Source of the DNA: Sycon ciliatum
Lineage: Eukaryota > Porifera > Calcarea > Leucosolenida > Sycettidae
Direction: 5' to 3'
Length of the DNA stretch: 64,000 nt
Assembly: GCF_964019385.1 (NCBI RefSeq)
Contig: NC_088655.1
Coordinates: forward strand, 16,048,948 to 16,112,947
Below are positions 8,055-62,594 of the stretch, in pieces. Positions within the stretch are counted from its first letter, which is position 1, and each line of letters opens with the position of its first letter. The position numbers were made by a program, and so were the translations under genes. The notes beneath the pieces are model-generated. The model did no database searches. It worked only from the letters and a program-made list of their open reading frames with translations, and had not been told where the DNA came from.

Positions 8055-8710
8055 TGCTGCAACTTCATGAACCACAATGCCGGGTTTGAATTCGTACGAA
8101 TACATGTATACGGTAGTCCACGCTCCTCCAGCACACCGCTCCTTAAACGTTCGCTGATTCTTAGCTCAATGCCGGATTGCGTCCTCTTGCGCTCCGCATG
8201 CGCGATCTGTCCAATCCTAATTGAATCTCCAACACCTGGCTCACGAACGTAAGATGTGCCGTGACATCAACCACAGTGCGTGCAAAATCTCGCTAGGGGT
8301 AATGCGAAGCAAACGTTTACGCGCACTAACTCGTATAATGTCCTGAGGTACCGAAATTGCTGAAAAAAGGCTTGTGACAAACGTAGAAGCTCCTTAGAGG
8401 TGAGTGGCGAATCGATAAACCCACCATTGGCTACTACCTTCCAAACTATACGAAAAACACGTAATATCAAACAAACATGAGTGCCGCAGAATATGTTTTC
8501 GAACTGAGTGCAAGCCTCACGCGCTCACGGATCGATGTTTCTGGCAACACATCCCACGGCCGATCGGGAAGCGAGGTAGCTACCTGTTGTGCTGCAGGAG
8601 ATGGAACTGTGGACGTGTGGTCAAGCGTGGAGGCAGTGATGGTACGGAAGCCTTCTAAAAACGGCTATAATTATATTTAGATAAGTGACTAAGTTGTAAT
8701 GTACCTTTTA

Positions 8711-18895: not shown

Positions 18896-18962
18896 GGTTG
18901 ATGAGGAAAATACTGCTGAAGAAACTCTTGAATCTGATACGGCTACCATCGTGGTTAGGAGG

Positions 18963-36590: not shown

Positions 36591-36629
36591 ATGTCTGGAG
36601 CTTATGGAAGCGGACATCCCAATAACTCG
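36591..36629 (+). CDS. Mini-exon 1 (possible start exon)
   Basis: ATG followed by SGAYGSGHPNNS, then the donor GTGAGT. The context CAACCATGT has A at -3. Unlike the later exons, its downstream intron sequence is not a member of the repeated intron family, so an unseen exon may lie between this and 41254. Confidence 0.4.
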
Positions 36630-39600
36630 GTGAGTTTAAATGTACTTACAGTCCATCCATTGGAAACTGGCTCCCTAACTTTTTGGTGTCTCTCTCACAT
36701 AGTTGTAGATATCGTGAAAACAACAGTACATCCTGCATTGTGCTACCCGTGCAATTACTCCTTGCCACATTTGAGGCCAGAAAAGTCCAAGAACAGGGAA
36801 ATAGAAATTCAGCCAGGTTTTACAAAATTAGGACAGGTGTGCCATGGCAAAATGTATGGAGAAGCAGATCCAAAACCCAGATTTTTGAGATTGAAAGTGG
36901 GTTTTTGATCCTCAGTTCGGCCCAAATCCGACTTTCAAAAGCCAGCGGGCCAGTTTCCGATGAATGGACTGGAGGGCATTCATTTCTTTTCTGGTATACC
37001 ACGCCAGACGTTCGTTCCTCGATCGAAAGACCCTTGACGTTGTTGCATTTATCACAAATTGAATATCTAGGAAGGGAGTTATTCATTATTATTTGCCTGG
37101 CGAAGTGGTCGGTAGCACCAGGCTGGTCGCTAGTCACGGTGGTTTTTAGTCACAGGTTTTACTGTATTACTGTAGTGTAATACTCATAGCGTTCTCATTC
37201 TATAGAAATTTGGAAAATGCAAATTAGTATTCTTGCTGTGAACTGGCGTTGCATTCATACGGAAATTTGCCAACTCAAATCAATAATACTGCCAAAAGGA
37301 GGACTATATTTTAGCTGTAAGATTTCCTATTTGTAGATCTGCATAAGGATAATGTCACAACGATCATTCTAGTGCAAGCAATGAGAAGAAACAAAGGATT
37401 GGTTCAGAACTGTTTCTTGGTACGATCATAAGTGAATATACGCAACCATGATTGGGGACTACTTCAAACAAATCTTATTATGTGCAGAAAGGATTTGCTC
37501 CGAATGTCGGAGCTCGCGCTTCCTGCCAACTGACTTGACATTTGACTGACTCGCGACTGCATCTGGCACCTTCGGAACCTTCCACTCGGCAAACCTGCAA
37601 GAAAGCACCACTCCCTGCTCAATACACAGTTTTTCAGGGACTTCAACTTTCATCAGTTGAGCTTGAGTACTGTAAAAGCCATAATGAAGTGCTAACTCTA
37701 ACGAGTTAACGATGAGAAATCTGTCGTCAAAATAGAAATCGTTATACAGAATTGATACATATACTGCCGTATTGAGCGCTGAGAATGAGTGAGAATAGTA
37801 ACCTTTGGTACGCATAAACTAGTCAATTTTGGGAAATCGCAATATATGCGCCTCGTTAGACTAATGGCTTTAACAGTAGGCCGAGGACGATTTTGTCTGA
37901 ATAGCACCACTTATATCATACTGACCAACCACCAAAATCTCAATCCCTTGACGAGACATGCAGAATTCCTGGATTTCTCTCAAAATCCCTGGATGGCACA
38001 ACACAATCTAAACAAGTGAAAAGAGCTTTTCCCGCCAGAAAATGTTCGTCTCTGCAGATCTGGGTACAGCAGAGTTCGACCCTGCAGTGCAGTTCAATCA
38101 GTCGGCGCCCGCCTGTCAGTGCAGATCTTGCAGGCTAGGCCGGTCAGATCTTGAAAGTGCCGAGCAGAGTTCAAAGTGCGAGTGGGCACCGTACATATTA
38201 AAAAAAAAAACGGGACATTCGAGGCGAATCCGTGGAGTTTTGAGGAAAATCCTGTCTCAGGCACAACTGTGACTTTTCCGGGAGTTTGCTTGAAATCCCC
38301 GGGACCCCAGGAGTAGTGTTGATTTCCCGGGATATTCCCGGGAAAACCGGAAGGGTTGGCCAGTATACTTATATAATGCTCTCATGACCAACCAATCACC
38401 AGGGATACAAACTTACACAGACAGTGACTCCGGCATCAAGCGCGACAAACACCTCGTGAGCACCAGGCAGCAGCGTGAGTCAGTGTCGCACATGGAGTTG
38501 TGGCTCGACGCGGAGTATCAAGTCAGTCGGCAGGAAGCGCGAGCTCCGGCGTTCGAAGCAGACACTTTCTTCACAAATAACCGCCGATGTCGCAACATCT
38601 TAGCTCTCGAAATCCTATACCGGTATGCACAAATTGAAGGGAAATAAGGGGAAAAAGGAGAGAAACAATAAGGTGGCAATACTGCATGTATACAGCAGGA
38701 GATGAGCAAAACACAAGCAGACGGGAGGAAAGTGTAAAGGGAAAAGGGGGGGGGGGGGGGACAATCACACTCACCACACACACACACCATACTATAGTAG
38801 ATAATAGGGATGAAACGATTACACCGATTACTCGGAACTTACTCCTTATCCCTATGATCACTACTCGTTATGCTGTTATCCAGTATGCACTACTTGTACA
38901 ATGTACATAACAATGTCCATAGTACTGTACTACTAGCGAAGTCACCGCACTGTCTGCATACTGTAGACTACAGTTGGATGACGTGCTGGGGTTGACTACG
39001 GTATAGTAGGTTGACTACGGTATAGTCTACCCCAGCACTTCATCCAAGGTGACAAAATTCACACCTTTTCCTCGTCACCTTCACACTTTTGGGATCCGGT
39101 GTGTGTACCACCGGTCACCCAGCAGTAAAACAAACTGGCTGTGCAGGATTTGATTATCAGTGCTGGGAGTGGATGGAGGCGCCTGTTTGTAGGACACCGG
39201 GCACTTTTCCAGGCTTCAGAAAGACAAGCGCAGTGGGAGCAGTACAATCGCGTACTTCGAAGTTGTGGGTGGAAAGCAGGGTGAAGATGCGAGCGAAACG
39301 GCAGCAGGAACAACGCCAGTGTCGACATCCTTCCGTAGCGACCAAAAAAATTACTTGTACTAGTTACGCATACAACACAGTTCTAGACGAGATGTCACAG
39401 AGCTTCCGAGATGTGTTATTCCATTAGTCAGCATTCCGAGATGTGTTATTCCATTAGTCAGCATTCCGAGATGTGTTATTCCATTAGTCAGCATTCCGAG
39501 ATGTGTTATTCCATTAGTCAGCATTCCGAGATGTGTTATTCCATTAGTCAGCATTCCGAGATGTGTTATTCCATTAGTCAGCATTCCGAGATGTGTTATT

Positions 39601-42600
39601 CCATTAGTCAGCACTCCGAGATGTGTCATTCCATTAGTCAGCATTCCGAGATGTGTTATTCCATTAGTCAGCATTCCGAGATGTGTTATTCCATTAGTCA
39701 GCATTCCGAGATGTGTTATTCCATTAGTCAGCATTCCGAGATGTGTTATTCCATTAGTCAGCATTCCGAGATGTGTTATTCCATTAGTCAGCATTCCGAG
39801 ATGTGTTATTCCATTAGTCAGCATTCCGAGATGTGTTATTCCATTAGTCAGCAAAAAATGAACACTGATAAAACAAACTTTCGCTTAAGACAAACTAGTA
39901 TTCATAACTCTATTGGATTCATCACTGTGTATTCACTGGGTAAGGCATATGGATAAGAAGAACTCCCGTTATTGCGAACAAATCCCGTCGGTCCCTTGTT
40001 GTTCGTCCTAAAGAGGTTTGACTGTACATGTACAGTTACATGTACATGTACATTTACATTTACATGTACATGTACATTTACATGTACATTTACATTTACA
40101 TTTACATTTACAGGTATGAGCATACTAGTACACTGTATTGTTACTGTATTGTTACTGTCTGCGCAAGTCATTCATGCGCCATTATCATGTTTCAGAGACC
40201 AGTGCAGTACAATTTTGATATGTCATACATATCCAGCATACTCGTTTTATGATAACTCGATCGTTTATAGTAAACGGTACTCGATAAGAAGAAATGGATG
40301 ATCGTTTCATTCCAAGCTAGATATGGGTTATTATGTGCCCTTTTGATTTTTCACATGTTATCACTATACTGTTAAAGCCATTATTCTAACGAGGCGCATA
40401 TATAACGATTTCCCAAAATTGACTGGTTTACGCGTACCAAAGGTAACGATTCTCACTCCTTCTCAATGCTCAATAGGACAGTATTATGACGTATCGATTT
40501 CTGTATAACGATTTCTATTTTAACGACAGATTTCTCCTCGTTAACTCGTTACAGTTAGCACTTCGTTAGATATATGGCTTTCACAGTAGCCAGTATATCA
40601 CTCATAAAAAGGACACACTTCAGGCTCATTACAAACATCTTGAAAGTTTTTGTCTTCACAAGTATACTTTCGAGCCTTCTCGTCAGGTGAAATACAGGCA
40701 AGGGAAAAGGAAAAAGAAACTTTCAAGATGTTTGTAATGAGCCTGAAGTGTGTCCTTTTTATGAGTATTATCGCATTTTTGTCTCAGAGGAAACAGTATA
40801 TCACTACAGGCGATTTTCAACAGTGTGCATCGTACATGCACGGTATACACGTGTGGGCACTCAATCGCGCTAGTGTAGCGTACTGGGGCAAGTAGTGTAC
40901 CATGTACAGTGTGTGGGTAGTACACAATGGCTACAAGACTGCGCGAGCTACGCTTGCTGCATGCAGAGCATGCGTGGTGCGGGGCAAGGCCAGCCTTTCC
41001 CTCGGTGACTTTTGCCCTTTGAATATTGTTGTCGTCTTGTCAAGGAGAGTTTCAGTCGTATTTCTCGTTCCTGAATTTCGTGATTTGCATGGTGGAGGCT
41101 AGTGCGAAGATTGCTATAGGGTACCCATTAGCCCAACTGTTAAGAGAACTACGCATTTCTTTGTCTAAGGTACATGTACATGCATTTGTCACCTAGTCAT
41201 TTCGCAACTAAACTCTGTCCTGCCCTCTGGCATGCACTTTTATTCTTGCGCAGGGGAATGGTCAAGCGGCTCGTAACAGAAGAATGTCTACATCTTCCGA
41301 CGGGCGTTCTGCCAAGAAGGTAACTGACCTATGAATGTCACTTGTGGACTGCATCCACTCAATGATACCCTTTCATGAAACTTGTTGTGAACGTTTGGCT
41401 CTTTTGGCAAGTATTGCCTTCTATGAAATGCCACTCTCTGCACAGTACACCGAGAAGATCATTGACGGCCTTTTCAGTGCAGATCATACAGCTTCCAGGT
41501 CCAATGGAGGAAGATAGTGGAGTGGGTGTGCAGTGTTACCAAGTGCCCTCTACCCCCATCCGTATTGCTCAGTGCCATTTTGCGAAATTTTTCAGCGTTT
41601 TCCATACTCGTTTTTTCAGGTCAACATTCTCACTGATTATTAGTGTAATTTGGAGAAAAAAACAAAAAAACAATACTGTCCAACCACAGAGTTCAATTGT
41701 GAAGCGTACGATTTAAAATTTCATGAAAGTAATTCCCTTTTTGCTATTCGTTATTCCTGGCGGTAGCAACCACGACTCTTTGAAGCAAGCGGTAGCTGTT
41801 TTCGGCTTTTTCTTCAATGCAGCTTCTTGCCTAGGTTCCTCGTCAGAATCCATGCTTGTCCACTTTGTTGTCCACTTTGTTGTCCACTTTGTTGTCCACT
41901 TTGTTGTCCACTTTGTTGTCCACTTCGTTGTCTGCTTCGTTGTCCGCTTGGTTGTCCGCATCGTTCATCTGGCTGAGACTGACATTGAACACAAAGCTAA
42001 ATGGTCGATCGAAAATGCTCTACGTACATAGAAGCTCGACGTACAAGGTCGACGCACAAGCTCGACGTACGAGCTCGTACAAGCTCGTACGTGAGTCGTA
42101 CAAACTCGTGCAAGCTCTGAATAGGACGCACGTCACATGGCATGACTTGTGTGTGCATGTGCAGTTTGCACAGCATGCATGGTGCACATACCGCGTAGTA
42201 CAATCATGCACATGTATTGCGCATGAATATGCACATGTACTGCACATGAATATGCACATGTACTGCACATGAATATGCACATGTACTGCACATGAATATG
42301 CACATGTACTGCACATGAATATGCACTTGTACTGCACATGAATATGCACATGTACTGCGCATGAATATGCACATGACATGAACATGGCATGTACAGCGCA
42401 GAGTGCATGCAGGCTGCATGCACTCTGCGATCCGATTTTGGGTAGATTGATCGATGGCACGTGGATGGGCGTCTTCTGCACCCTTTTCCCCTCCTTTCGA
42501 AGACACCTTTATTTTATTTTCTTTTTTTCGTTTTTCCGGGATAATTCGATTGAAATCCGTACTGCGGACAAAACTTCGTTTTCCGTAAAAATACGGACAA

Positions 42601-45600
42601 ATACGGGCAGTTGGTAACACTGGGTGGGACACACTAAGCACTGCTTCTGCTTCTGCCAGAAATTCTTAATAAGAAAGCTTATACCTACCTTAATATACAC
42701 CCCCATTCATCACACAGATCCACTGCCAGTGTATATTCATTGTATTTGTTCAAGAATGAAATTTAAGGAAATATACTGTTAATAGAGAGGTTCCGGGGTA
42801 CGATTTTCCGTGCCAAAATCCGTGTGGGCGCTACGGATTTTTTCCAGGCGTGCTCCATACGATTTTTCGGCACGGAGAATCCGTGTGGACTGGCTTTCAC
42901 ACGAACCATGTTTTGTATGGAGATTTTGCGTCATCGGGTGCAGAAAGATTTTTCGCGTACAAATTTGGTATGAGAAACATGGATTTTCCGCGGGAACTTT
43001 TGATTTCGGTACAAATTTTCAAAATAAAAAGGCATGGCGCGGGAATGTGACGTGTTTGGGCCCGTAACCTAGGCAATGACGGCAAACACATAAGTTCCGT
43101 ACTCCGGAACATTTCACTGCTTGAAAACGACGTATAAAAATCCGTAGGGCCTCTACGGATTTTTGGCACGAAAAATCGTACTCCGGAGGAACCTCCCTTA
43201 GGGCCTGGTCAGACTGCGGCAAAATCGAAATAATCCTAGGATTATAATCCGAATCTCCATAGTAACTTGCCGCCAGAGCGGCAAAAGCGAGAGTTGACGC
43301 TCCAAAAAAAAAGCAAGAACGGACCACGCTTTTCCGCTCCAAACAGGATTTGACGCTGATACGCCATTGACGCTGATAATCACTGATTTTTTCATCTCGA
43401 TATCGAGGAGCTAATTGGCCACGGACAACAACAAAACTCATAAGGATGGTTGCAAGGATTGCACTGAAGGTGTTGGCGATCCCCAAGGTGAAGGAATTTG
43501 ACGTCGTTCGTGGAGATTACCACTTGACGCTCGAAATGAAGTTTGAATTTTCACTCTCCCCACATGTGTAGTGTGATCGCGATTCAAATTCTGGACGCTG
43601 TTCTGTTTTCGTCAGGCAACCAAAATTTGCCGCAGTCTGACCAGGCCTGTAGAGAAATAAATACTGTTAATATATACTCCTTTTTAGGATTCAGAAGAGG
43701 GACTTCGAAATTTTCTCTCCACTTCAAAAAGAAAATTGAAAGAAAGAAGACAAAGGAAGAGAACAAGCAGGATTCGAACCCACAACAGTATGAATCTCAA
43801 GCAACCCCTTTTACCACCCAGCCACTGTGCTGCAGATGCTAAACCCTGTTGTTCTTACAATCTTGTACCCAAAATAGGCAACATCCCACATGTATGTACA
43901 CTATAGTACAAATGCTATACTAAAACGGTTAGTATAGCATTGTGTGATGAATGGGGGTGAATATTGAGTTAGGTATAAGTTGGATATACCATTCGCTGGA
44001 GTGTATATGGAAAATATACACCATCATACAAACCTCGGCCTGCGGCCTCGGTTTGTATTTGGTGTATATATTTCCATATACACTCCAGCTCAGGGTATAT
44101 CCTATACATATCTGAAAATTCTTTTAAAATACATGTAAAAGTTGATCTCTCCAATTTTGCCCAAAATTTCATGTAAGCTCACCTTGGGGGTGTAGATCAA
44201 CAGTGCAAAGCTCATGAAAAGTTTCTGAAGGAAATCTTGAATCTGGCATACCCTTAGAAGTGGGCCAAAGTCACATAATCTATAGGTGTATATACGAGTC
44301 ATGCCACCGTGTACACGAACTAACTACGAAAAAAACTTCATAAAACTGACATTGCCACAACTTTTGATTTTGGGTGCAGTACCAATTAGCCACGTCAGCA
44401 TCACAGAATGCCGAGGGTCATCAACCCCTGACGCCACAGATGATCGTCTTGAAAATAGCCAATTTACGAGCACTGATAAAACTACGAGCTACTCCCCCAT
44501 TTAGCAAGAACTATACACCGGCGGACAGTAGAATATCTCTACTAGGAGTGAAAACATGTCCCCCATCTTCGTTCTAAGGTTTTCTTGAACAGATGTTTTT
44601 TGAAATTTTCCACTCCACCATGCTGAAATACGGCCAAACTTGCACCTGTGCAGGAAAGCTCGCCCCTCTGCGACGTCAGCATTTTCTACTCCAACACTAC
44701 TCCTGGAGCTGAAGAAGAAAGTGTATTTTTGATTCATACAAAGAAAAGCACCGGTGAGCACTTGTCACTCCAAACGACAAACTTCTCCTTGCGCCACCAA
44801 CACATTATTGGTGCGACCGGTGATGCAAAAGTGACTGAAGTCCTGAGCACGGTTGTTGAATTTCACTGCAAGAGCCGCAGTGAATCACTTGCATCATGAC
44901 ACAAGAATGCCAAGTCTCGTGGATCACGCAGACCATATTCGGCATTGCAGGAGTTAGATGCAAAGGTACAAGATACATTGCTCACCACCTCCTGCCCACA
45001 CCAGCCACATTTCATTCATCTTGGGCACCCTGTAAGAAGACCTTAGGGTCTGTTGGGAATGCCCAAGTAAAATAATAAAATACAATACAAAAAATACATA
45101 ACTCTCCTTGCTGTGCATGGGATTATTTCAACGGCCTATTGGCATTGCAACATTCCTAGGGCAGTTTGTGGGGGTTTTGAACCGACTCTGCAGGAATTAC
45201 AGCGCATCTTACCTCAGCCATCATGTTTCTTTCAGAGTAGCGTGCCAGTCACGACTGTGATTGCTTTGTGTTGTGATCCGGAAACGTCATTCCACGTCAC
45301 AAATCACGCGATTTCACCGTGGCCTCTACAGTAAAATTCAAAACCGCGTTCAGGACTTCAGTCACTTTTACATCAAAGGGTCGCACCAAACAATAGAAGT
45401 GGCTCCAGGAGAAGCCTGTCGCGTGGAGTAACAAGTGATCACCGCTGCTTTTCCTTGTCAGAATCAACAATACACTTTGTTCCGCAGCGTTGAGAGTAGT
45501 GTTGGAGCAAAAATTACCGAGGAGACGTCGCGGAGGGGCGAGCTTTCCTGCACAGGTATGAGTTGGGCCGTTTTTGAGCATGGGAGTGGAAAAAATCCAA

Positions 45601-51600: not shown

Positions 51601-54600
51601 ACTAGCAGCTAGGGTTTTGAAATCTTCGTCATGACCGAAACGTCTGCGTCCATGGGAACAGGTCGGGCAAGATGTCAAAACTCCAAAACGCAGAGAGGTA
51701 ACAATCGTCACTTCGCGTAGCACAGCAAGATGAACAAGTTCAAAATAGAAGTCGTTCAGCCACTGCTGAGCCCAGACTTCAACGTAGATGATCTCATCTT
51801 TTCCAGTAGCCTCGACGATGTGTCCTTGGTAGCAAAGGAGAAGGCGAGATCAGACCTCGGTAGTCGGGAAGTGCTGGTATGACTATGATATCCCTCGGAG
51901 GAAAGTTAAAATGTTTGGCATTGCCTGTGTTTCTTGTTCTGGGGCATCCTCGAGCAAGAGCGGAGGCGGTAATGAGTACCAGCGCTGGCGCACTCCCGTG
52001 GTCCCCACCGAGAAGTTGGAGAAGGCATTCGGGTAACAGCGAAGACGATCAGGGACGCTTAGAAGCTTCTCCATGACATACAACATCGCGTCAACAGACA
52101 TTCTACTTGGAACAGTTAAGTGGTACGAGTCGAGCGATGGGGACCCAGACTAAGACTCGACTCCCACTAGTCGATCCTGTAGATATTGTACATATGCCGG
52201 TTGTATGTGTTAAAGTGTTTCTCTTCCAAAAGAACACTTTTGTTGAGCACAGTAACTCCTTGAAAAGTCAATTCAAAAAATCAGTAAGTTGTGTCCGGAG
52301 AAAGCACAATGTATAAGAGCTTGTGTGGAAATCGATTACTAGTAATCATACTTTGAAGCTCAAAAGAATTGCTAGATACTTGGCCAAACGTCTTGTCCTG
52401 GATATTTGATGTCCCCAAATTTCCAGCATGCCCTAGGATCTCTTCATCTCCATTTGTCATTTTGCAGGTTAACTCTATCCTGTTCTGTGACATGCGCTTT
52501 TATTCTTGTATAGCACCAACAGCTGAGTGTACCTACGCAGTATGCAGCGCCTCTAGGTTCTAACACTTTTCCGCAGCAGGTACCGGTAAGTGACCTATTA
52601 ATGGCAATAGTGGACTGCATTCACTCCTTCATACCCTTTCATGATTGTGTATTGTAAATGTTAAGCTCTGTTGGCAAGCCTAAAGTACTGTTTTCTATGA
52701 AATACACTCTCTACAAACTATACTGAGAAGACCATTGATGGCCTTTTTACTAAGTTTTTAGTGCACAATGGGCTGCTACCAGGTCCAATGCAGGGAGCTA
52801 GTGCAGTGGGTGGGACACAGCAAGCTCTGCTTCTGCTTCTCTGACTAATCCTGAATTTGAAAATGGTGTATTGGATTCACTTGATCCTGACGTTACATTG
52901 ATATTTCAACTACATTGGCAATTTCAATTCTGCCGGTGTGCCTACTTCCTCCGGAAACGAAAACTTCGTGACTATTCACTACTTTTGGCTGCTGTTATTT
53001 CAGTCTCTGTCTCTGGTTCTGCAAGCCTCAATCACAGACATGATATTTCGGAATCGTAGGAAAGCCTCATTCATATTTTGGAGAGCCGACAGACGTCACA
53101 GAGCAAGGGTGTCTGACGCTGCAAACAAAGCAAAGCGAACATGTTTATCATTTTTCGTGCATCAGGCGCAATGTGAAAACCCTGCGCTGACTGCTGGTCG
53201 TGGCTATTTTTTAGCTAAGAACTTGACAGAGCGGTACAATGGTACCGAGGAGCGAGAAGAGTGGAAAATGAAAAACACTAGCAGCTAGGGTTTTGAAATC
53301 TTTGTCGTGACCGAAACGTCTGTGTCCATGGGAACAGGTCGGGCAAGATGTCAAAACTCCAAAACGCAGAGAGGTAACAATCGTCACTTCGCGTAGCACA
53401 GCAAGATGAACAAGTTCAAAATAGAAGTCATTCAGCCACTGCTGAGCCCAGACTTCAACGTAGATGATCTCATCTTTTCCAGTAGCCTCGACGATGTGTC
53501 CTTGGTCGCAAAGGAGAAGGCGAGATCAGACCTCGGTAGTCGGGAAGTGCTGGTACGACTATGATATCCCTCGGAGGAAAGTTAAAATGTTTGGCATTGC
53601 CTGCGTTTCTTGTTCTGGGGCATCCTCGAGCAAGAGCGGAGGCGGTAATGAGTACCAGCGCTGGCGCACTCCCGTGGTCCCCACCGAGAAGGTGGAGAAG
53701 GCATTCGGGTAACAGCGAAGACGATCAGGGACGCTTAGAAGCTTCTCCATGACATACAACATCGCGTCAACAGACATTCTACTTTGAACAGTTAAGTGGT
53801 ACGAGTCGAGCGATGGAGACCCAGACTGAGACTCGACTCCCACTAGTTGATCCTGTAGATATTGTACATATGCCGGTTGTATGTGTTAAAGTGTTTCTCT
53901 TTCAAAAGAACACTTTTGTTGAGCACAGTAACTCCTTGAAAAGTCATGTCAAAAAATCAGTAAGTTGTTGTGTCCGGAGAAAGCACAATGTACAAGAGCT
54001 TGTGTGGAAATCGATTACTAGTAATCATACTTTGAAGCTCAAAAGAATTGCTAGATACTTGGCCAAACGTCTTGTCCTGGATAATTGATGTCCCCAAATT
54101 TCCAGCATGCCCTAGGATCTCTTCATCTCCATTTGTCATTTTGCAGGTTAACTCTATCCTGTTCTGTGACATGCGCTTTTATTCTTGTATACCACCAACA
54201 GCTGAGTGGACAGACGCAGTATGCAGCGCATGGAGGGTATTACACTGCTCCGCAGCAGGTACAGGTAAGTGACCTATTAATGGCAATAGTGGACTGCATT
54301 CACTCCTTCATACCCTTTCATGATTGTTTTTGTAAATGTTAAGAGAGCATGTCTGAGAATACCAAAGTATGTGTGCAAGTGGATCTCTCCGATTTTGCTC
54401 AAAATTTGCAGGTAGGTTCCCTTTGGGGTGTGGATCGATTGGGCAAAGCCCTTGAAAAGTTTCTGAAGGGAACCTTGAAATTTGCATACCCCTCAAAAAT
54501 GGCCGAAATATCACATTATTTATGGGTCTAGAAACGAGTCACGCCACAGCGTATACGAACAAGCTATGAACAAAACTCCATCAAGCCAACATTGCCTCAC

Positions 54601-57600
54601 CTTAGAAGAGTTCCTGGAGCAGTACCGCTTAGCCACGCCAGCATCCCAGAAGACGAGGTCCATCACCCCCTGACGCCACAAATGATCGTCTTGAAAATAG
54701 CCAATTTACAAGCGCTGGCAAAACAGCCAGCTACGTCCTCAATTGGCCAGAACTATACACCGGCAGATAGTAGAACACCTCTTCTAGCGCTGAGGACATG
54801 TCCCCCATCTTCCTTTTGGGGTTTTCTTGAAATAAACTTTTTTGAATTTTTCCACTCGACCATGCTGAAATACGGCCAAAGTCATACCTGCGCAGGAAAG
54901 CTCGCCCCTCCGCGACGTCTCCTCGGCAATTTCTACTCCAACACTACTCCCAAGGCCGCAGAACAAAGTGTAGTGTTGACTCTGACAAGGAAAAGCAGCG
55001 GTGATCACTTGTCACTCCAAACGACGAGCTTCTCCTTGCGCCACCAATAATTTTTTGTGCGACTGTTGATGCAAAAGTGACTGAAGGCCTGAGCGCAGAT
55101 TTTGAATTTTATTGCAAGATGCACGGTGAAATCACGTGCCTTGTGACGCAAGAATGCCAAGTCGTGTGGCCCACGGCTCACGAAATTTCAGAGTGACCTT
55201 TGTCAAGTGCGCTTGTTACTCGCCTTGAACGCCCGTGGCTGTGGCGTTGGTCTGGAAGTGATCACACTTGTGTTGTTACTGCTCTCAAGAACACGCTGAC
55301 CGTGCTGTAGGCCTATGAACCGGGACTTTCCCTGACCATGTAGGTCGAAGACCAGGGAAATGATGATGAAATCACATTCTTTATGACGTAAGAAATCTCT
55401 CATGCAGTTCACGCGACAAGTGCGTGCAACCAGTGCTGCTCGCGTGCCAGTCAACACAAAGGGACCGATCTAGCCGCTTTTGTCGAGCATCGACATGAAA
55501 ACTAGGGACTTTTACTGTTGGACTATGTTCGGGATTGCAGGAGGTAAGTGTGAAAGACGAATAACTGTCCATGCTGTACGGGGGCATATTTCAACGACTT
55601 GCTGCCATTGCACCACTCCTAGGACAGTTTGGGGTTTTTTTTAGCAGATCAAGCAGGAAATGCAGCTCATCTCACCTCTGCCATCATGGTCTGTTCCGAG
55701 TAGCGTTCCAGACACGTTCGCGATCGATGGCTGCGTATCGTGATGCAGGAAGCGTCATCCTACGTCACAGAGCACGCGATCTCACCGTGCATCTTGCAAT
55801 AAAATTCAAAAACTGCGCTCAGGCCTTCAGTCACTTTTGCATCAACAGTCGCACAAAAAATTATTGGTGGCGCAAGGAGAAGCTTGTCGTTTGGAGTGAC
55901 AAGTGATCACCGCTGCTTTTCCTTGTCAGAGTCAACACTACACTTTGTTCTGCGGCCTTGGGAGTAGTGTTGGAGTAGAAATTGCTGAGGAGACGTCACG
56001 GAGGGGCGAGCTTTCCTGCGCAGGTATGACTTTGGCCGTATTTCAGCATGGTCGAGTGGAAAAATTCAAAAAAGTTTATTTCAAGAAAACCCCAAAAGGA
56101 AGATGGGGGACATGTCCTCAGCGCTAGAAGAGGTGTTCTACTATCTGCCGGTGTATAGTTCTGGCCAATTGAGGACGTAGCTGGCTGTTTTGCCAGCGCT
56201 TGTAAATTGGCTATTTTCAAGACGATCATTTGTGGCGTCAGGGGGTGATGGACCTCGTCTTCTGGGATGCTGGCGTGGCTAAGCGGTACTGCTCCAGGAA
56301 CTCTTCTAAGGTGAGGCAATGTTGGCTTGATGGAGTTTTGTTCATAGCTTGTTCGTATACGCTGTGGCGTGACTCGTTTCTAGACCCATTAATAATGTGA
56401 TATTTCGGCCATTTTTGAGGGGTATGCAAATTTCAAGGTTCCCTTCAGAAACTTTTTCAAGGGCTTTGCCCAATCGATCCACACCCCAAAGGGAACCTAC
56501 CTGCAAATTTTGAGCGAAATCGGAGAGATCCACTTGCACACATACTTTGGTATTCTCAGACATGCTCTCTTAAGCTCTGTTGGCAAGCCTAAAGTACTGT
56601 TTTCTATGAAATATACTCTCTACAAACTATACTGAGAAGACCATTGATGGCCTTTTTACTAAGTTTTTAGTGCACAATGGGCTGCTACCAGGTCCAATGC
56701 AGGGAGCTAGTGGAGTGGGTGGGACACAGCAAGCTCTGCTTCTGCTTCTCTGCCTAATCCTGAATTTGAAAATGGTGTATTGGATTCACTTGATCCTGAC
56801 GTTACATTGATATTTCAACTACATTGGCAATTAAAATTCTGCCGGTGTGCCTACTTCCTCCGGAAACGAAAACTTCGTGACTATTCACTTCTTTTGGCTG
56901 CTGTTATTTCAGTCTCTGTCTCTGGTTCTGCAAGCCTGTTTCACAGACATGATATTTCGGAATCGTAGGAAAGCCTCATTCATATTTTGGAGAGCCGACA
57001 GTCGTCACAGAGCAAGGGTGTCTGACGCTGCAAACAAAGCAAAGCGAACATGTTTATCATTTTTCGTGCATCAGGCGCAATGTGAAAACCCTGCGCTGAC
57101 TGCTGGTCGTGGCTATTTTTTAGCTAAGAACTTGACAGAGCGGTACAATGGTACCGAGGAGCGAGAAGAGTGGAAAATGAAAAACACTAGCAGCTAGGGT
57201 TTTGAAATCTTTGTCATGACCGAAACGTCTGTGTCCATGGGAACAGGTCGGGCAAGATGTCAAAACTCCAAAACGCAGAGAGGTAACAATCGTCACTTCG
57301 CGTAGCACAGCAAGATGAACAAGTTCAAAATAGAAGTCATTCAGCCACTGCTGAGCCCAGACTTCAACGTAGATGATCTCATCTTTTCCAGTAGCCTCGA
57401 CGATGTGTCCTTGGTCGCAAAGGAGAAGGCGAGATCAGACCTCGGTAGTCGGGAAGTGCTGGTATGACTATGATATCCCTCGGAGGAAAGTTAAAATGTT
57501 TGGCATTGCCTGTGTTTCTTGTTCTGGGGCATCCTCGAGCAAGAGCGGAGGCGGTAATGAGTACCAGCGCTGGCACACTCCCGTGGTCCCCACCGAGAAG

Positions 57601-60600
57601 GTGGAGAAGGCATTCGGGTAACAGCGAAGACGATCAGGGACGCTTAGAAGCTTCTCCATGACACACAACATCGCGTCAACAGACATTCTACTTGGAACAG
57701 TTAAGTGGTACGAGTCGAGCGATGGGGACCCAGACTGAGACTCGACTCCCACTAGTCGATCCTGTAGATATTGTACATATGCCGGTTGTATGTGTTGAAG
57801 TGTTTCTCTTCCAAAAGAACACTTTTGTTGAGCACAGTAACTCCTTGAAAAGTCAATTCAAAAAATCAGTAAGTTGTTGTGTCCGGAGAAAGCACAATGT
57901 ATAAGGGCTTGTGTGGAAATCGATTACTAGTAATCATACTTTGAAGCTCAAAAGAATTGCTAGATACTTGGCCAAACGTCTTGTCCTGGATATTTGATGT
58001 CCCCAAATTTCCAGCATGCCCTAGGATCTCTTCATCTCCATTTGTCATTTTGCAGGTTAACTCTATCCTGTTCTGTGACATGCGCTTTTATTCTTGTATA
58101 TCACCAACAGCTGAGTGGACATACGCAGAATGCAGCGCCTGTAGTTTCTTACACGCTTCCGCAGCAGGCACCGGTAAGTGACCTATTAATGGCAATAGTG
58201 GACTGCATTCACTCCTTCATACCCTTTCATGATAGTTTTTGTAAATGTTAAGCTCTGTTGGCAAGCCTAAAGTACTGTTTTCTATGAAATACACTCCCTA
58301 CAAACTATACTAAGAAGACCATTGATGGCCTTTTTAGTGCACAACGGGCTGCTACCAGGTCCAATGCAGGGAGCTAGTGGAGTGGGTGGGACACAGCATG
58401 CTCTGCTCCTGCTTCTCTGACTAATCCTGAAGTTGAAAATGGTGTATTGGATTCACTTGATCGTAACGTTACTTTAATAATTCAACTACATTGGCAAATA
58501 CAATTATGTTGGTGTGTGCCTACTTCCTCCGGAAACAAAAACTTCGAGACTTTTTTCACTACTTTTCGCTGCTGTTATTTCACTCTCTCTCTGGTTTTGC
58601 CAGCTTCAAACACTGACATGACATTTCGGAATCATATACACGCATGATTTATATTTTGGAGAGCCGACAGTCGTCGCAAAGCAAGGGTGTCGACGCTGCA
58701 GACAAATCAAAACGAACATGTTTTTTCATTTTTCGTCCATCAGGCGCAATGGGAAGAAAAGCACTACGCTCTCTGCTCGTCGTAGCTATTTTGTTAGGTC
58801 AGAACTTGACAGAGCAGGACAATGGCACTGAGGAGCAAGAGGAGTGGAAAATGAAACACAATAGCAGCTAGCGTTTTGAAATCTTCGCCATCCCCGAAAC
58901 GTCTGTCTGGATGGGAACAGGTCGGCAAGATTTCAAAACTCCGAAACACAGAGATGTGACAGTCGTCACTTCATGCAGCAGAGCAAGATGAACAAGTTCA
59001 CAATAGCTGGAGTGACATTTGACGGCAAGCTGTCAGTCCGAGATCACTTGCACTCGATTGCGACATGTGGCTGCCAGAAACTGGGTGTTCTCCGTCGGGC
59101 TTGCATTGTGTTAGATTACCATGGCCGGCTTTGTGCAGTGTACAGTAAAACCGGTAATGGCGACCACTCGGATATGGCGGCCACTCGACCATGGCGACCA
59201 CTTTTCCTTGTCACGGACGCATTCACGTTCAAAACACCTCGGATAAGGCGACAACTCGCTCAACGCGACCGACAACCACCCACCCGCGACCGCGTAGCAC
59301 AGTGTTACTCATGTAAGGGACGCATTGCATGGTGCACCAGGCATGGTAGATCTACACATCAGTGCAGGAAGTGTAGATGTACATGGTGCATGCACGACAT
59401 TTGACAGGTCTGAGGACTCCAGGCACATGAGTCGTGCTAGAGTAGCATAGATGCGTGCACTGCGATGCACTGAACAAAATGATGTATCACATTTGGGTAT
59501 GGTCACGTGACCCACTGAACCTGGATAAGAAGTCCACCTGGCCATGGCGACCACTTTTCTCGTCCCTTGAGTTAAACAGGTTTCACAGTACAAGGGAGTT
59601 GTCCGACCTGTCCTTGAGTATGCTCCCCTTGTGTGGATGGGAGCTGCATCCAGCCACGTGACCTGACTCGACCGGTTGCAGAACCATGCAATGGCCATTA
59701 TTGGTCCTGGTGCCCTTCTCCAAAGCCTGTGCCGGCACCGTCGGATTGTATCTGTGCTGGTATACCTGTATAAGCTCCAGTGCACCCCAGGACCACCCCA
59801 GCTCATCGCCATGGTCCCCCTCCAGCCAACCGTGTAGAAGCTCGGCACACCCGGAGTCAACCCCCTCCTGGCCAGCAGCACCATTTGCAGCTGCAGCAAG
59901 TCCTGGACAGGAGAGCACCAGCCTATCCTTCTCGCTCCTTCCCGTTTTCTGTCATCTCAGTATGGAACAGCTTGCCAAGCGATATTGTCAGGGCTACACT
60001 CAGCTTGAAGCGACCTTCAAAAAAGATGTTCATAAGCACCTCACGCACCAACACTGGTGGATGGCTACCAACGTCTACGGATAAATTCTAGATTGTTGCA
60101 CGGGTCATGTTCCTTGGTTCGGCTATGCTGATGATATTGGGCTTCATTTACTTTTATTATTAGTTTGTTTTGTTTGTTATGATTTCTTGGTTTTTCACCC
60201 CCTTTAGTTATAATTTAAAATATTTATTATTTGGTGCAGCTTTAGAGCTATGTGGTTTTTGATTTCCCTTTTTCTTAATTTCGTAATTAGCGCTTTTGAG
60301 TGTCATTATTTTCTTATTGTTTCGGACGAAGTTAATATTTTTGTGGTATTCTATAGCTTCAGTTTGTTTTGCAGTTGCTCTTGTGCATCCCCCCCCCCCA
60401 ATTTTTTGATGCCTAGTTGCAACGCTGACATCAAGACCTCTGGTCAGTTGAATTACTCCCAGCACATCGGCATGTCGTCCATACATCCCCTGTGTTTTGT
60501 CCTTTTCTTTGTTCCTTTTTGTTCTCCACCTGTTTTCCAGTAGGACTGTTTCAATAGTAAAAAAAAGAAGAAAAAATGAAGTCATTCAGCCACTGCATAG

Positions 60601-62534
60601 CCTAGACCTCAACGTGAATGATCTCGCCCTTTCCACTAGCCTTAACGATGTGTCCTTGGTCGCAAACTAGAAGGCGGAATCTGATCGTGGCAGTTTGGAA
60701 GTGCTTGTACGACTAGGATATTTCTCGGAGGGAATTTGAAATGTGTGGCGTTGCCTGTGTTAATTGTTCTGGGACATTTTCGAGCGAGAGCGGAGGCGGT
60801 AATAAGTACCAGTGCTGCAGCGCTACCATGATCTCTACCATGATGTTGGAGAATGCATTCAGGTAACAGCAAAGACGATCAAGGACGCTGACGAGCTTCT
60901 CAATGACATACGACATCGGGTCGATCGACCTGCCACTTGGAACGGTTAAGTGGTACGAGTCGAGCGATGGCGACCCAGACTGAGACTCGACTCCCACTAG
61001 TCGATCCTGTAGATATTTTAGATATGCCGGTTGTATGCGTTAAAGTGTTTCTCTTCCAAAAGAACACTTTTGTTGAACACAGTGCGGAGGATTAGCAAGA
61101 CGAAATTCGCGTTCGCGTTCGCTCTCCAAAGAAAGTCGAACTCAGTGACGGAATTCGCGTTATGAGAAGGATTAGCAAACAGAATTCGCACATGCATGAT
61201 GTTGACACGACGTAGGCAGTACAGCGTGGTAAATTTATGACTGCCCTGACACGAATCCACGATTCGTGTTCCGACTACTTTTCCGAACGAAAAATGCGAA
61301 AGTTCGCAATCCAGTTCGCGAACTGAAAAATGTTTGCGAACGCGAACGCGAATTTCGTCTTGCTAATCCTCCGTAGTAACTCCTTGAAAAGTCATGTCAA
61401 CAAGTCACGAAGTTTTTGTTTCCGGAGGAAGTACAATGTACTAGAAATTGTGTGGAAATAGATTACTAGCAATCCTACTTCGAAGTTCAACAGAATTGCT
61501 ACTACCTCCGACAAGCGAAACTTGGCGCGTTTTTTGTTGTTATTTTTTTTGTTTTGGTACCACAACTTCACAAGGCTGTGAGGTACTCGTACGACCTACT
61601 TGTAGCTCCATGCAACCAGTTGCAGGAAGCCAAGCGACGGGCTGGTGAGTGGCACATGGCTCAGACATAGTCAGAGGCAAGCCAGTCTCTCGTGTACCAG
61701 CAAAACAGTGCGCGCGTCCCTTCTGCGAAGGAGAATCGTCGTGCTTTCGCGTTGCAATGGAAAACCAAGGAGTTCTCTCTCTCTCTCCACTTGGTCACTC
61801 CGCCAGCACAGAGTCCATACGTCCATGCCAAACAATCCTAGAGTCTTTCGAAAGCCACCAGAGCGATCGCCAGGAATTGCTGCAGGCAATGTTGGACAGT
61901 TGGCGAGAATACCAGGCAAAACTGTTCGAGTCCAGGCGCATGTGGAGGTGTTGCACAGTTCTTACCACGTCAACCTGGACAGTGGCGGTGGAAACGACTA
62001 CCCTTGACACCGTGGCTCTAGCACAGCACACAGGAGCGACATCGAGATTTTCAGAGCGATTACAACAGAGGTACTTGCTGCAACTGAATCCGCTTTAGTC
62101 GCACTTTCGTCTCAAAACAGGAACAATTCCTCTCCAGACGAAACTGCGATCTCTGAATCAAAGGAGAGTGATTCAGGCGAACAGATGTCTCTAATGTCCT
62201 TGTTGAGCAATACAAAGTTGAATTTTGGTGAGTCAATCATTAGTTTTGATTGTAAAGTGAGAGTTATTTCTAGTAATTTGAAGTAAAAAACGCGCCAAGT
62301 TTCGCTTGTCGGAGGTAGTAGATACTTTGCCAAACGCCTTGTCCTGGATAATTGATGTCCCCAAATTTCCAGCATGTCCTAGGATCTCTTAATGTTCATT
62401 TGTCATTTTGCATGCAGGTTACCACGGGGGTAGCAGGTGCCGCGGCGCCCTTAAACCCGACGTACCAATTTCAACAAGGTGGTTTTGACAGTGGACGGTC
62501 GACTAGCGGGAGTGGTTACATGCATGAACAATAT
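36591..62534 (+). CDS. Mini-exon gene for a low-complexity protein, split by homologous introns (partial, continues right)
   Basis: Seven short exons are proposed: 36591-36629, 41254-41319, 46793-46873, 52514-52585, 54202-54264, 58111-58173 and 62418-62534. Every one is a multiple of three and phase 0 at both ends, so they join openly into at least 167 residues rich in Gly, Ser, Ala, Gln, Tyr and Pro, with no cysteine and no recognised fold (intrinsic disorder is inferred). Donors from the second exon on are GTAAGTGACCTAT or close variants. Acceptors follow TTTATTCTTG...AG, or a nearby AG. The introns are copies of one ~1.6-kb sequence enlarged by transposons. Exons 4-6 resemble one another; the others do not. 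The protein identity is unknown; a prion-like or transactivation-type region is possible. No stop is reached before the window ends. Transcript evidence is needed to confirm the model. Confidence 0.5.
37617..37662 (-). ncRNA. Hammerhead ribozyme motif, decayed copy
   Basis: On the minus strand GCTCAA, CTGATGA, GAAA and TTGAGC are all kept in the same order and spacing as at 35240-35285. Stem II (AAGTTGAAGTCCCT) and stem III (A-A-C against T-G-T) carry mismatches. The outer stem I is split by the MITE at 37670. It is probably inactive. Confidence 0.5.
37670..37876. mobile_element. 207-bp TA-flanked MITE, copy A
   Basis: The termini are CTGTAAAAGCC and GGCTTTAACAG, with TA at 37668-37669 and 37877-37878. 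Removing it restores the sequence GAGTAGG found uninterrupted in copy 1 of the ribozyme element. The inverted sister copy is 40369-40586. Confidence 0.8.
37917..38366. mobile_element. 450-bp hAT-like MITE with 8-bp duplication
   Basis: The ends are CATACTGACCAACC and GGTTGGCCAGTAT, with ACTTATAT on both sides (37909-37916 and 38367-38374). The interior has CTGCAGATCTGGG-like and GATCTTGCAG motifs; no transposase. Confidence 0.7.
38611..39407. other. Stretch without a recognised gene
   Basis: 38808-38850 resembles one end of the hAT element at 9800. 38972-39048 is a small inverted repeat (TTGGATGACGTGCTGGGG with CCCCAGCACTTCATCCAA) around a duplicated GGTTGACTACGGTATAGT. Confidence 0.45.
39408..39853. 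repeat. 30-bp minisatellite, about 15 units
   Basis: The unit is ATGTGTTATTCC, ATTAGTCAGC, ATTCCGAG (30 bp), almost invariant; the unit near 39608-39637 has two changes. Because 30 is divisible by three, both strands stay open (MCYSISQHSE or MLTNGITHLG repeats). No start context, splice signals or unique flanking coding sequence supports a protein. Confidence 0.92.
40022..40112. repeat. ACATGT / ACATTT tract
   Basis: Tandem TACATG and TTTACA hexamers, self-complementary in large part. Similar short tracts recur across the whole window. Confidence 0.85.
40369..40586. mobile_element. 218-bp TA-flanked MITE, copy B (inverted relative of 37670-37876)
   Basis: The termini are CTGTTAAAGCC and GGCTTTCACAG, with TA at 40367-40368 and 40587-40588. 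The interior aligns with copy A in reverse orientation, for example CCCAAAATTGACTGGTTTACG. Confidence 0.8.
40600..40767. repeat. Perfect 50-bp inverted repeat with 68-nt spacer
   Basis: Arm 40600-40649 and arm 40718-40767 are exact inverse complements. CAGTATATCACT occurs at 40591-40602 and again at 40794-40805, a possible 12-bp direct repeat around the structure. The spacer holds a hammerhead-like motif on the minus strand. Confidence 0.85.
40654..40692 (-). ncRNA. Compact hammerhead-like motif with reduced stem II
   Basis: On the minus strand stem I is TTTCAC (40692-40687) with GTGAAG (40559+100 offset, i.e. 40659-40654): five Watson-Crick pairs and one G-T. CTGACGA is 40686-40680. Stem II is only GA/TC around the loop AGGC (40679-40672). 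GAAA is 40671-40668. Stem III is the self-complementary AGTATACT (40668-40661), which has no loop in a monomer and so would need a dimer. The cleavage triplet is CTT ending at 40660. The order and spacing fit a minimal type I hammerhead, but activity is uncertain. Confidence 0.45.
41254..41319 (+). CDS. Mini-exon 2
   Basis: 66 nt, phase 0, between TTTATTCTTGCGCAG and the donor GTAACTGACCTATG. It encodes GNGQAARNRRMSTSSDGRS followed by Ala and two lysines. Both flanks belong to the repeated intron family, though more diverged than the others. Confidence 0.5.
41861..41965. repeat. 12-bp minisatellite
   Basis: About eight units of TTGTTGTCCACT, degrading at the right end. Confidence 0.85.
42205..42375. 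repeat. 23-bp minisatellite, about seven units
   Basis: The unit is CACATGTACTGC followed by ACATGAATATG. A period not divisible by three gives shifted frames on each unit. Confidence 0.85.
42786..43197. mobile_element. Inverted-repeat element, about 411 bp
   Basis: GAGGTTCCGGGGTACGATTT at the left is matched by AAATCGTACTCCGGAGGAAC at the right, and CCAAAATCCGT by ACGGATTTTTGG. No target duplication was confirmed. Confidence 0.6.
43201..43650. mobile_element. Inverted-repeat element, about 450 bp
   Basis: GGGCCTGGTCAGACTGCGGC at the left and GCCGCAGTCTGACCAGGCC at the right. It abuts the previous element. The minus-strand frame at 43019-43486 crosses both elements and is not called as a gene. 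Confidence 0.65.
43768..43830 (-). repeat. tRNA-derived SINE head
   Basis: On the minus strand a box A-like TGGCTGGGTGG is followed, at about the right distance, by a perfect box B GGTTCGAATCC. A full tRNA cloverleaf cannot be drawn (the anticodon stem fails), so a SINE or tRNA pseudogene is likelier than a working tRNA. Confidence 0.5.
43973..44095. repeat. Palindromic repeat
   Basis: GCTGGAGTGTATATGGAAAATATACACC is matched inverted by GGTGTATATATTTCCATATACACTCCAGC around a GGCCTGCGGCC centre. The longer motif is given only to locate it at 43993-44020 and 44062-44088. Confidence 0.7.
44096..46391. mobile_element. TTAA-type foldback element, diverged copy 1
   Basis: Related throughout to the complete copy at 54343-56569: long inverted arms (about 44096-44700 and 45430-46391), sharing ATGATCGTCTTGAAAATAGC and CTATACACCGGCGGACAGTA. 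The right arm carries a foreign segment of about 150 bp near 46110-46260. It ends GGACATGCTCTC but without TTAA, so it is old or rearranged. Frames over it have no recognised domain. Confidence 0.65.
46164..46232 (+). other. Candidate alternative first exon
   Basis: ATG (G at -3) opens 23 codons, MSNMGVEAATQANGTKGDK then RRQK, ending exactly at AAAAG before GTGAGT. It would be phase 0, as required to splice into the exon at 46793, and lies in a segment missing from the other TTAA-element copies. It may be an alternative start of the mini-exon gene or a chance frame. Confidence 0.3.
46793..46873 (+). CDS. Mini-exon 3
   Basis: 81 nt, phase 0, between TTTATTCTTGAATAG and GTAAGTGACCTATG. It encodes EYVLSADRFGGASGTSDNW followed by DYQPANQA. 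It shares no sequence with exons 4-6, although the intron bases on both sides are about 90% identical to theirs. Confidence 0.55.
47081..48109. mobile_element. 1.03-kb inverted-repeat element with 5-bp duplication and visible empty sites
   Basis: The ends are CAGGCGCATACGCAGGG and CCCTGCGTACGCGCCTG, with AGTGG on both sides (47076-47080 and 48110-48114). The uninterrupted site AGTGGAGTGGGTGGG is present in sister introns near 51120, 52800, 56707 and 58378. The interior includes an inverted-repeat relative of 31465-31802 at 47649-47930. No transposase was seen and the superfamily is not assigned. Confidence 0.8.
48745..49153 (+). mobile_element. LINE fragment with an internal 21-bp expansion
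   Basis: It encodes AGVTFDAKLSVRDHLHSIA and QKLGVLRRA, the usual sequence C-terminal to the reverse transcriptase core of CR1/L2-like LINEs. The codons for IVLDYHG are expanded to fourteen 21-bp units (48842-49135), whereas the sister fragment at 59007 has one. It is cut off by a TA-flanked MITE remnant (49154-49211, CAGTAAAACCTGTAATGGCG). Confidence 0.7.
48842..49135. repeat. 21-bp minisatellite, fourteen units
   Basis: The unit is CATTGTGTTAGATTACCATG plus G, identical in all fourteen copies as far as read. This points to a very recent expansion. Confidence 0.95.
49212..50967. mobile_element. TTAA-type foldback element, truncated copy 2
   Basis: Over most of its length close to copy 1 (44340-46090). 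It begins abruptly at TGACATTGCCACAAC after the MITE remnant and ends at the join to GATAGTTTTTGTAAATG, a sequence that normally follows a mini-exon. Both ends are therefore rearranged. Confidence 0.65.
52514..52585 (+). CDS. Mini-exon 4
   Basis: 72 nt from the acceptor TATTCTTGTATAG, or 63 nt if the in-frame AACAG at 52518-52522 is used; donor GTAAGT. It encodes (HQQ)LSVPTQYAAPLGSNTF then PQQVP. The two acceptors differ by nine bases and both keep phase 0. Confidence 0.5.
52586..54201 (+). repeat. Prototype of the repeated intron (about 1.6 kb)
   Basis: This intron carries no obvious late insertion. It opens GTAAGTGACCTATTAATGG and ends TTTATTCTTGTATACCAC then CAACAG. Copies fill the gaps around exons 2-7. 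A 52-codon frame (MNKFKIEVIQPLLSPDFNVD...) occurs in each copy at about 53406-53564, but it is short and its role is unknown. Confidence 0.7.
54202..54264 (+). CDS. Mini-exon 5
   Basis: 63 nt, phase 0, acceptor AACAG (the upstream TATAG of exon 4 is TATAC here), donor GTAAGT. It encodes LSGQTQYAAHGGYYTAPQQ then VQ. The exon resembles exons 4 and 6. Confidence 0.5.
54343..56569. mobile_element. Complete TTAA-targeting foldback element, 2.2 kb
   Basis: The ends are GAGAGCATGTCTGAGAATAC and the inverse GTATTCTCAGACATGCTCTC. TTAA stands outside both (54339-54342 and 56570-56573). The empty site GTTAAGCTCTG is present in sister introns at about 46956, 51000, 52663 and 58253. The arms are about 0.8 kb and nearly perfect, with a ~0.6-kb centre lacking coding capacity. 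A TTAA duplication is the rule for piggyBac and Kolobok; which one is not decided. Confidence 0.85.
58111..58173 (+). CDS. Mini-exon 6
   Basis: 63 nt, phase 0, acceptor CACCAACAG, donor GTAAGT. It encodes LSGHTQNAAPVVSYTLPQQ then AP. The intron before it contains the complete TTAA element. Confidence 0.5.
59007..60577 (+). mobile_element. 5' truncated LINE with A-rich tail, inserted in a repeated intron
   Basis: It opens within the region after the reverse transcriptase core (AGVTFDGKLSVRDHL, QKLGVLRRA). After the nested MITE (59143-59588) it continues VVRPVLEYAPLVWMGAA and YPSRSFPFSVISVWNSLPSD, typical of CR1/L2-like LINEs. It ends in an A-rich tail (60559-60576). Stops and a frameshift show it is dead. 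Intron sequence resumes at GAAGTCATTCAGCC, matching the uninterrupted site near 53425 and 57334. Confidence 0.75.
59143..59588. mobile_element. 446-bp TA-flanked MITE nested in the LINE
   Basis: Begins CAGTAAAACCGGTAATGGCG, ends GGTTTCACAG, with TA at 59141-59142 and 59589-59590. Removing it rejoins the LINE frame as CAVYKGVVRP. Same terminal family as 4426-4603. Confidence 0.75.
61084..61374. mobile_element. 291-bp inverted-repeat element
   Basis: The inverted ends are CGGAGGATTAGCAAGACG... and ...CGTCTTGCTAATCCTCCG, perfect for about 38 bp and rich in TTCGCG/CGCGAA. AGT stands outside both ends (61081-61083 and 61375-61377), and the empty site CACAGTAACTCC is seen in sister introns (for example 53924 and 57833). 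Confidence 0.75.
61502..62319. mobile_element. 818-bp TA-flanked element with open frames
   Basis: The ends are CTACCTCCGACAAGCGAAAC and its exact inverse, with TA at 61500-61501 and 62320-62321 and the empty site TTGCTAGATACTTGG in sister introns. Inside, a plus-strand frame at 61649-62098 reads QTILESFESHQSDRQELLQ, then a further amphipathic stretch. It is not a recognised transposase; it may be captured host or element sequence. Confidence 0.75.
62418..62534 (+). CDS. Mini-exon 7
   Basis: 117 nt, phase 0, between TTTTGCATGCAG and GTAAGTGATCTATGAATGG. It encodes VTTGVAGAAAPLNPTYQFQQ followed by a Gly/Ser-rich part and GYMHEQY. The exon is unrelated to exons 2-6, but the downstream intron start matches theirs. 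Confidence 0.5.
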
Positions 62535-62594
62535 GTAAGTGATCTATGAATGGCAATAATCCTACTCCTTCATGATAGTTATTGTAAATGTTAA

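Follow-up and report, generated by a model that had tools for sequence, protein, structure and literature searches.

A probable tandem exon array in one gene of the sponge Sycon ciliatum, with coding pieces more diverged than the introns between them

At a locus on C14 of the calcareous sponge Sycon ciliatum, copies of one ~1.6-kb intron alternate with short phase-0 exons from 41.2 to ~99.1 kb (window-extended), with a divergence between the coding pieces eight to ten times that between the intervening introns. We consider it likely that this is a tandem exon array produced by repeated unit duplication, fast exon change and intron mixing, which together mimic a mobile intron. The window, i.e., the whole stretch of DNA that was analysed, is 64,000 nucleotides long (C14:16048948-16112947; genome 538 Mb). 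Coordinates above 64000 are window-extended, the same numbering being carried past the window end. The alternation of ~1.6-kb intron copies and short phase-0 exons reported in the earlier note was confirmed and proved to be larger, comprising 12 exon units (e2–e13) and extending ~35 kb past the window end. The array sequence compared excludes positions 75001–80000 and 82501–90000 (window-extended). The exons and introns of the locus are as follows.

36591–36629, plus strand: putative exon 1 (MSGAYGSGHPNNS), absent from the RefSeq protein; the 5′ end of the following intron is non-family.
41196–41248, plus strand: 3′ end of intron 1, a 53-nt fragment of the intron family with 81–85% identity to other copies.
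41254–41319, plus strand: exon 2, 66 nt, phase 0 (GNGQAARNRRMSTSSDGRSAKK).
41320–46792, plus strand: intron 2, a diverged family copy with 73% and 83% identity to intron 4 at its two ends and a mostly replaced middle.
46793–46873, plus strand: exon 3, 81 nt, phase 0.
46874–52522, plus strand: intron 3, with a 5′ copy (46874–48744), a second, 3′ copy of the A type (50973–52522) and insertions between them.
52523–52585, plus strand: exon 4, 63 nt; alternatively 72 nt with a start at 52514 and a TATAG acceptor, the RefSeq choice for e12.
52586–54201, plus strand: intron 4, an uninterrupted 1616-bp family copy.
54202–54264, plus strand: exon 5, 63 nt, homologous to exons 4, 6, 8, 9 and 10.
54265–58110, plus strand: intron 5, a family copy carrying a ~2.2-kb palindromic element (54340–56573).
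58111–58173, plus strand: exon 6, 63 nt, with a terminal branch of about zero in the exon tree and the intron tree alike.
58174–62417, plus strand: intron 6, A-like in its first ~218 bp, the remainder belonging to a B lineage common to the 5′ half of intron 3; carries insertions.
62418–62534, plus strand: exon 7, 117 nt, with an acceptor AG upstream of that in other units.
62535–67780 (window-extended; window part 62535–64000), plus strand: intron 7, with mainly its ends kept.
67781–67873 (window-extended), plus strand: e8, from the intron alignment, border confirmed in the RefSeq protein.
70205–70267 (window-extended), plus strand: e9, from the intron alignment, border confirmed in the RefSeq protein.
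72592–72678 (window-extended), plus strand: e10, from the intron alignment, skipped in the RefSeq protein.
81456–81521 (window-extended), plus strand: e11, from the intron alignment, border confirmed in the RefSeq protein.
91812–91898 (window-extended), plus strand: e12, with the RefSeq acceptor.
98716–98760 (window-extended), plus strand: e13, with the donor at 98760 taken from the RefSeq protein.

The array introns contain segments of a single 1616-bp sequence; the segments mostly keep their order but are interrupted by insertions or partly replaced. Intron 4 is the only uninterrupted copy, introns 7 and 12 retain mainly their ends, and intron 3 consists of two overlapping family copies, the 5′ one being close to intron 6 beyond nt 218. 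The similarity begins at GT and ends at AG in most units; the deviating sites are the acceptor side of e7 and the donor side of e13. Several details of the earlier note were borne out by measurement. Exon 7 takes an earlier AG (...TTTTGCATGCAG) and exons 5 and 6 an AG 9 nt downstream, with the addition that either AG is possible for exon 4. Intron 1, said to be devoid of the 5′ half of the family, carries just the last ~53 nt of it, and the ~94% identity given for the sequence after the donors of exons 3 and 6 was measured as 94.7% over 207 nt. High similarity before the acceptors of exons 3 and 4 was also found, but the figure of ~88% has to be replaced by 92% (8 differences in 101 sites). 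As first delimited, 11 of the 12 array exons were open and a multiple of three in length, and e13 is likewise with its donor at 98760.

The introns also contain other sequences. The palindromic element of intron 5 has arms of 98.6% identity and is inserted at TTAAG; its relatives were found at 62591–63243 and at 44107–46107 and 49212–50977, and its end sequence was seen by eye at the equivalent spot in introns 7 and 12. Two minisatellites are present, a 30-bp unit repeated 15 times in intron 1 (39404–39853) and a 21-bp unit repeated 14 times in intron 3 (48841–49136). On the minus strand, the A-type introns 8 and 9 carry ORFs of 129 aa (69565–69951 and 71236–71622, window-extended), with shorter counterparts in introns 3, 4, 5, 6 and 10, some of which may be cut by the slice ends. 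As regards a nested intron gene, two minus-strand intron ORFs, one of them a 129-aa ORF, gave no Pfam match, nor did two short plus-strand intron ORFs. Elsewhere in the window, three minus-strand ORFs were noted: an 896-aa ORF at 5415–8105 with a SID-1 RNA channel domain (PF13965) and two Sycon ciliatum proteins at 49–50% identity, an ORF with a Frizzled cysteine-rich (Fz) domain at 18086–18949, and a putative retroelement integrase-like ORF recognised by eye at 63387–63980, which we take to be Pao/BEL-like.

The array probably sits in one Sycon ciliatum gene, with partial RefSeq support in that the predicted model LOC135829215 spans its downstream half. This model, the sole protein returned by a search with the joined exons and the sole support used for the exon chain, includes e8, e9, e11, e12 and e13; e10 is skipped, and e1–e7 are absent, the latter being a point against the array explanation. 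The junctions of e8, e9 and e11 match borders that had been set beforehand from the intron alignment, and e12 begins 9 nt upstream, at a TATAG acceptor. In addition, the model has a first exon at 67144–67242, 24 residues between e11 and e12 with no counterpart in the sequence read, and end exons at 105992, 114829 (21 nt), 116867 (30 nt) and 126488 (window-extended). A codon-usage scan for more exons over 98.7–202 kb had given nothing usable, and it was the RefSeq protein that placed them. The junctions of LOC135829215 that were checked are in phase 0, including those of non-family introns.

One search with the C-terminal region of this protein (165 candidates, E 0.01) found no homolog other than the region itself. 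No Pfam domain scored above the cut-off, CRAL_TRIO (E 0.1) and ATP-grasp_3 (E 0.18) lying below it, and the structure model of the LOC135829215 protein was unusable (mean pLDDT 38.6). A paralog of the C-terminal exon with 42% identity lies ~430 kb away on the minus strand (C14:15743505-15743945), and no unit array was found in the 20 kb read upstream of it. A role of the encoded protein as a variable scaffold or in recognition is speculative.

Six of the array exons (4, 5, 6, 8, 9 and 10) are homologous. At the nucleotide level, all 15 pairs gave p 0.002, the minimum with 500 shuffles; at the protein level, 4 of the 15 missed p 0.05, which we counted against the duplication reading. Maximum likelihood (ML) trees, drawn without branch support values, gave the same topology, (e4,e5,(e6,((e8,e10),e9))), for the six exons and for ~258 bp of their intron flanks, which indicates that exon and intron were duplicated as a unit. 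The duplication of exons 4–6 proposed earlier is thus supported, and on the grounds of homology and the shared tree it also covers exons 8–10. Exons 2, 3, 7, 11, 12 and 13 had no clear homology to the six or to each other (51 pairs), which we likewise counted against the duplication reading. The best of these 51 pairs, e2–e3 (p 0.0012), becomes marginal after correction (~0.06), so this similarity is not claimed; apart from it, the earlier observation that exons 2, 3, 4 and 7 have no sequence in common holds. Based on these results, the duplicated unit would be one short symmetric phase-0 exon together with its ~1.6-kb intron, and the intron copies may have served as the platform on which unequal exchange multiplied it. 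Symmetric phase-0 exons could be gained, lost or skipped without loss of frame.

For the six units, the excess of exon over intron divergence is firm, more so than any cause proposed for it: the exons differ by 31.0% and the introns by 3.8% (258 columns), the top exon-length window placed in intron sequence only reaching 4.1%. For e4/e5/e6, the values are 17.5% and 1.8% (1515 columns), with a top intron-only window of 4.2%. Less clean sets gave 25% for the exons against 10.6% for the top intron-only window (e4/e6/e9), 31% against 16% (e8/e10) and 60% against 33% (e3/e4), the 33% window being the sequence upstream of exon 3 compared with intron 3b. Codon positions 1, 2 and 3 diverge by 31, 40 and 21% (15 non-independent pairs pooled), which is the opposite of purifying selection. 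A codon ML analysis of the 6 alignable exons out of the 12 estimated omega at 3.06 (2ΔlnL 9.5 versus omega 1). When the exon branches were tied to the intron branches, the neutral exon rate was 5.1 times the intron rate (2ΔlnL 10.6).

The codon ML result provides moderate evidence in favour of positive selection on the exons, and we suggest that the coding pieces may be under diversifying selection. However, synonymous sites are also ~5-fold above the introns, and selection on amino acids alone is therefore insufficient. Furthermore, omega may be too high owing to multi-nucleotide changes. Singly changed codons, counted in two sets of three near-independent pairs from the six exons, had nonsynonymous to synonymous ratios of 23:5 and 25:4, not significantly different from neutral (p 0.26 and 0.11). 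Looking for an odd mutation process, we obtained transition to transversion ratios of 23:45 in the exons, ~1:1 for intron copies compared with intron 4 and 5:17 in the short intron flanks. Diversification limited to the exons, for example by error-prone copying from spliced RNA or by a spread of introns within the gene through reverse splicing, seems very unlikely to us. If true, it would entail more synonymous change in exons than in introns and unrelated exons between near-identical introns, and variable peptides attached to a constant C-terminal part would form a combinatorial repertoire in a sponge.

The introns have exchanged sequence with each other. Compared with the A-type introns (3b, 4, 5, 8 and 9), introns 3 (5′ half), 6, 10 and 11 differ by 2.4–4.9% in the first ~218 bp and by 9.4–13.3% in positions 219–839, cells with less than 40% of positions being left out of this segment-wise comparison. 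These four introns thus switch their relationship near position 220; for intron 6 against intron 4, the divergence is 2.4% in nt 1–218 and 12.8% in nt 219–839 (p 4e-6). Introns 3, 6, 10 and 11 can be paired with A-type introns 4, 5, 8 and 9 in 16 ways; all 10 of these mosaic-versus-A pairs that were compared had the same contrast at p ≤ 0.014, and none of the five A–A pairs compared had it (p ≥ 0.3); for intron 3 against 6, p was 0.52 and for intron 10 against 11, 0.03. Because the contrast occurs in the mosaic pairs but not in the A–A pairs, exchange accounts for the low 5′ divergence better than constraint does. The mosaic introns consist of segments swapped between copies.

This mosaicism, with introns 3, 6, 10 and 11 A-like at first and diverged thereafter, together with the excess at synonymous sites, is also what would be expected if gene conversion had homogenised the introns and selection had held the exons apart, with exon rates nearer to ordinary. 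There is a precedent in the primate L/M opsins, in which, according to part of PMC3213168, exons are more diverged than introns, as in Sycon, conversion tracts are mostly intronic, and introns have a lower ratio of inter-gene divergence to polymorphism than synonymous sites do. However, the opsins are a pair of genes in which introns and exons give conflicting trees (PMC3213168, in part), whereas the Sycon locus is a 12-unit array in which exon and intron topologies agree for six units, and the intron divergence of e4/e5/e6 is even across 1.5 kb. We regard homogenisation of this kind as a serious possibility, though somewhat less likely than not. It overlaps with the tandem-array explanation, which itself includes intron exchange, so that the likelihoods given to the two are non-exclusive and those of all readings do not add up to unity.

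Slow change of the introns could, in principle, also reflect function, such as that of RNA elements that guide alternative splicing. Introns 3–6 and 8–11 differ by just 0–8% in the first 75 nt and by 0.7–6.9% in nt 76–218, and the skipping of e10 in the RefSeq protein would agree with such a role. Nevertheless, the first 218 bp of the A-type introns have changed no more slowly than the 621 bp that follow (the five A–A pairs above), no Rfam family was found in the window at the gathering score, and the first 225 nt of intron 4 fold no better than shuffled sequences (z +0.49). The even A-type divergence and the lack of an Rfam match or an unusual fold weaken this candidate, and we hold it to be very unlikely.

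The earlier note had favoured an introner-like mobile sequence. In such a scenario, a mobile intron would have been copied into one coding sequence at several sites, the exons would be unrelated from the outset, and exons 4–6 and 8–10 would have been duplicated later. The flush position of the intron similarity at the splice sites agrees with it, as does the fact that the introns after e3 and e11 start just 1–7% off the A-type introns, yet e3 and e11 have no clear homology to the six. In addition, the starts of introns 3 and 10 are identical over 75 nt, with no significant alignment between exon 3 and exon 10 (p 0.09). On the other hand, a search of the 538-Mb genome with probes for the two intron ends gave at least 13 matches for the 5′ probe (164 nt) and at least 11 for the 3′ probe (167 nt), and every match lay in the array (C14 16.0903–16.1478 Mb). 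These counts are lower bounds: the search recovered array copies down to 77% identity but overlooked two array pieces, one at the 3′ end of intron 1 and one at the beginning of intron 7. There was no signal of a target-site duplication (TSD) in 11 introns (89 matches between exon ends and intron ends versus 89.4 in shuffled data, p 0.58), and inspection of intron 4 by eye revealed no terminal inverted repeat. According to part of PMC9860276, TSDs and/or terminal inverted repeats occur in 59.2% of 130 introner families and both are lacking in 40.8%, so their absence here is compatible with introners. The uniform phase 0 is uninformative on transposition because the non-family introns of this gene are in phase 0 as well.

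Like introners, the Sycon introns are highly similar and flush with splice sites, some of them between non-aligning exons; they differ in being confined to a single gene, in showing no TSD signal and in flanking six homologous exons (compared with PMC9860276, in part). Thus, among the features expected of introners, flush boundaries were found in most units, and neither a spread over many genes nor general non-homology of the flanking exons was. Among those expected of tandem duplication, the co-duplication of exon and intron was found for six units, and the exons are symmetric and frame-keeping. As evidence against its own proposal, the earlier note had named a repeat that never coincides with intron ends elsewhere and exons that align; the genome search yielded the former, and the latter was found for only 6 of the 12 exons. 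Since the probes matched the array alone and no TSD signal was obtained, a genome-wide introner is unsupported. Given, in addition, that no terminal inverted repeat was seen and that exon and intron-flank trees agree for six exons that are clearly duplicates, intron transposition at this locus is unlikely, although intron copying confined to this one gene may have taken place.

Under the preferred explanation, a tandem array, the flush GT...AG edge would be the place where a fast exon and a slow intron meet. Conversion between introns would halt at this edge, where non-homologous exon sequence begins. For the identical starts of introns 3 and 10, conversion halting at a non-homologous exon, a crossover near the exon and copying of introns within the gene all fit. 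The initial argument for a mobile sequence was that tandem duplication predicts conserved exons and drifting introns. This premise does not hold, a counterexample being the Plasmodium var genes, in which fast exons go with retained intron similarity and which are named as a false positive in section 15 of the introner survey (PMC9860276, in part).

Coding sequence that evolves faster than introns is also described for snake venom toxin genes in part of PMC2711939. The Sycon gene resembles the toxin and var genes in this respect, and its codon model gives an omega above 1. Those are separate paralogous genes, however, whereas the Sycon repeats are exons inside one gene with no sign of a toxin. 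The micro-exons of schistosomes are symmetric. The micro-exon genes share with the Sycon gene fast protein evolution and very short exons (21 and 30 nt in Sycon, outside the array); the Sycon gene differs in that evidence of secretion or a parasite setting is lacking and its exons are visibly duplicated in tandem with their introns (PMC4350168, in part). A row of duplicated exons within one gene is likewise found in Dscam-type arrays, and one exon is skipped in the Sycon model. Dscam exons encode Ig domains or their parts and are mutually exclusive (PMC3236188, in part); in contrast, several of the Sycon exons co-occur in one model, and no domain was recognised in them. Fast exons and intron homogenisation are thus each already known, and it is their occurrence together inside the exon array of one gene that is less usual. 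A limited literature search found no report of both within one twelve-unit sponge exon array.

Since duplication with fast exon change copies a hallmark by which introners are called, this locus is a useful control for intron-gain surveys. As phase-0 exons can be added or skipped in a frame-neutral way, the array would give a variable, probably disordered stretch before a constant C-terminal region. The locus would thus represent a non-bilaterian gene, with a C-terminal region lacking homologs beyond its own genome (E 0.01, one search), in which short frame-neutral exons have been multiplied and diversified. The question of whether exon arrays serve sponges in recognition or in other functions that call for variability thereby becomes open to testing.
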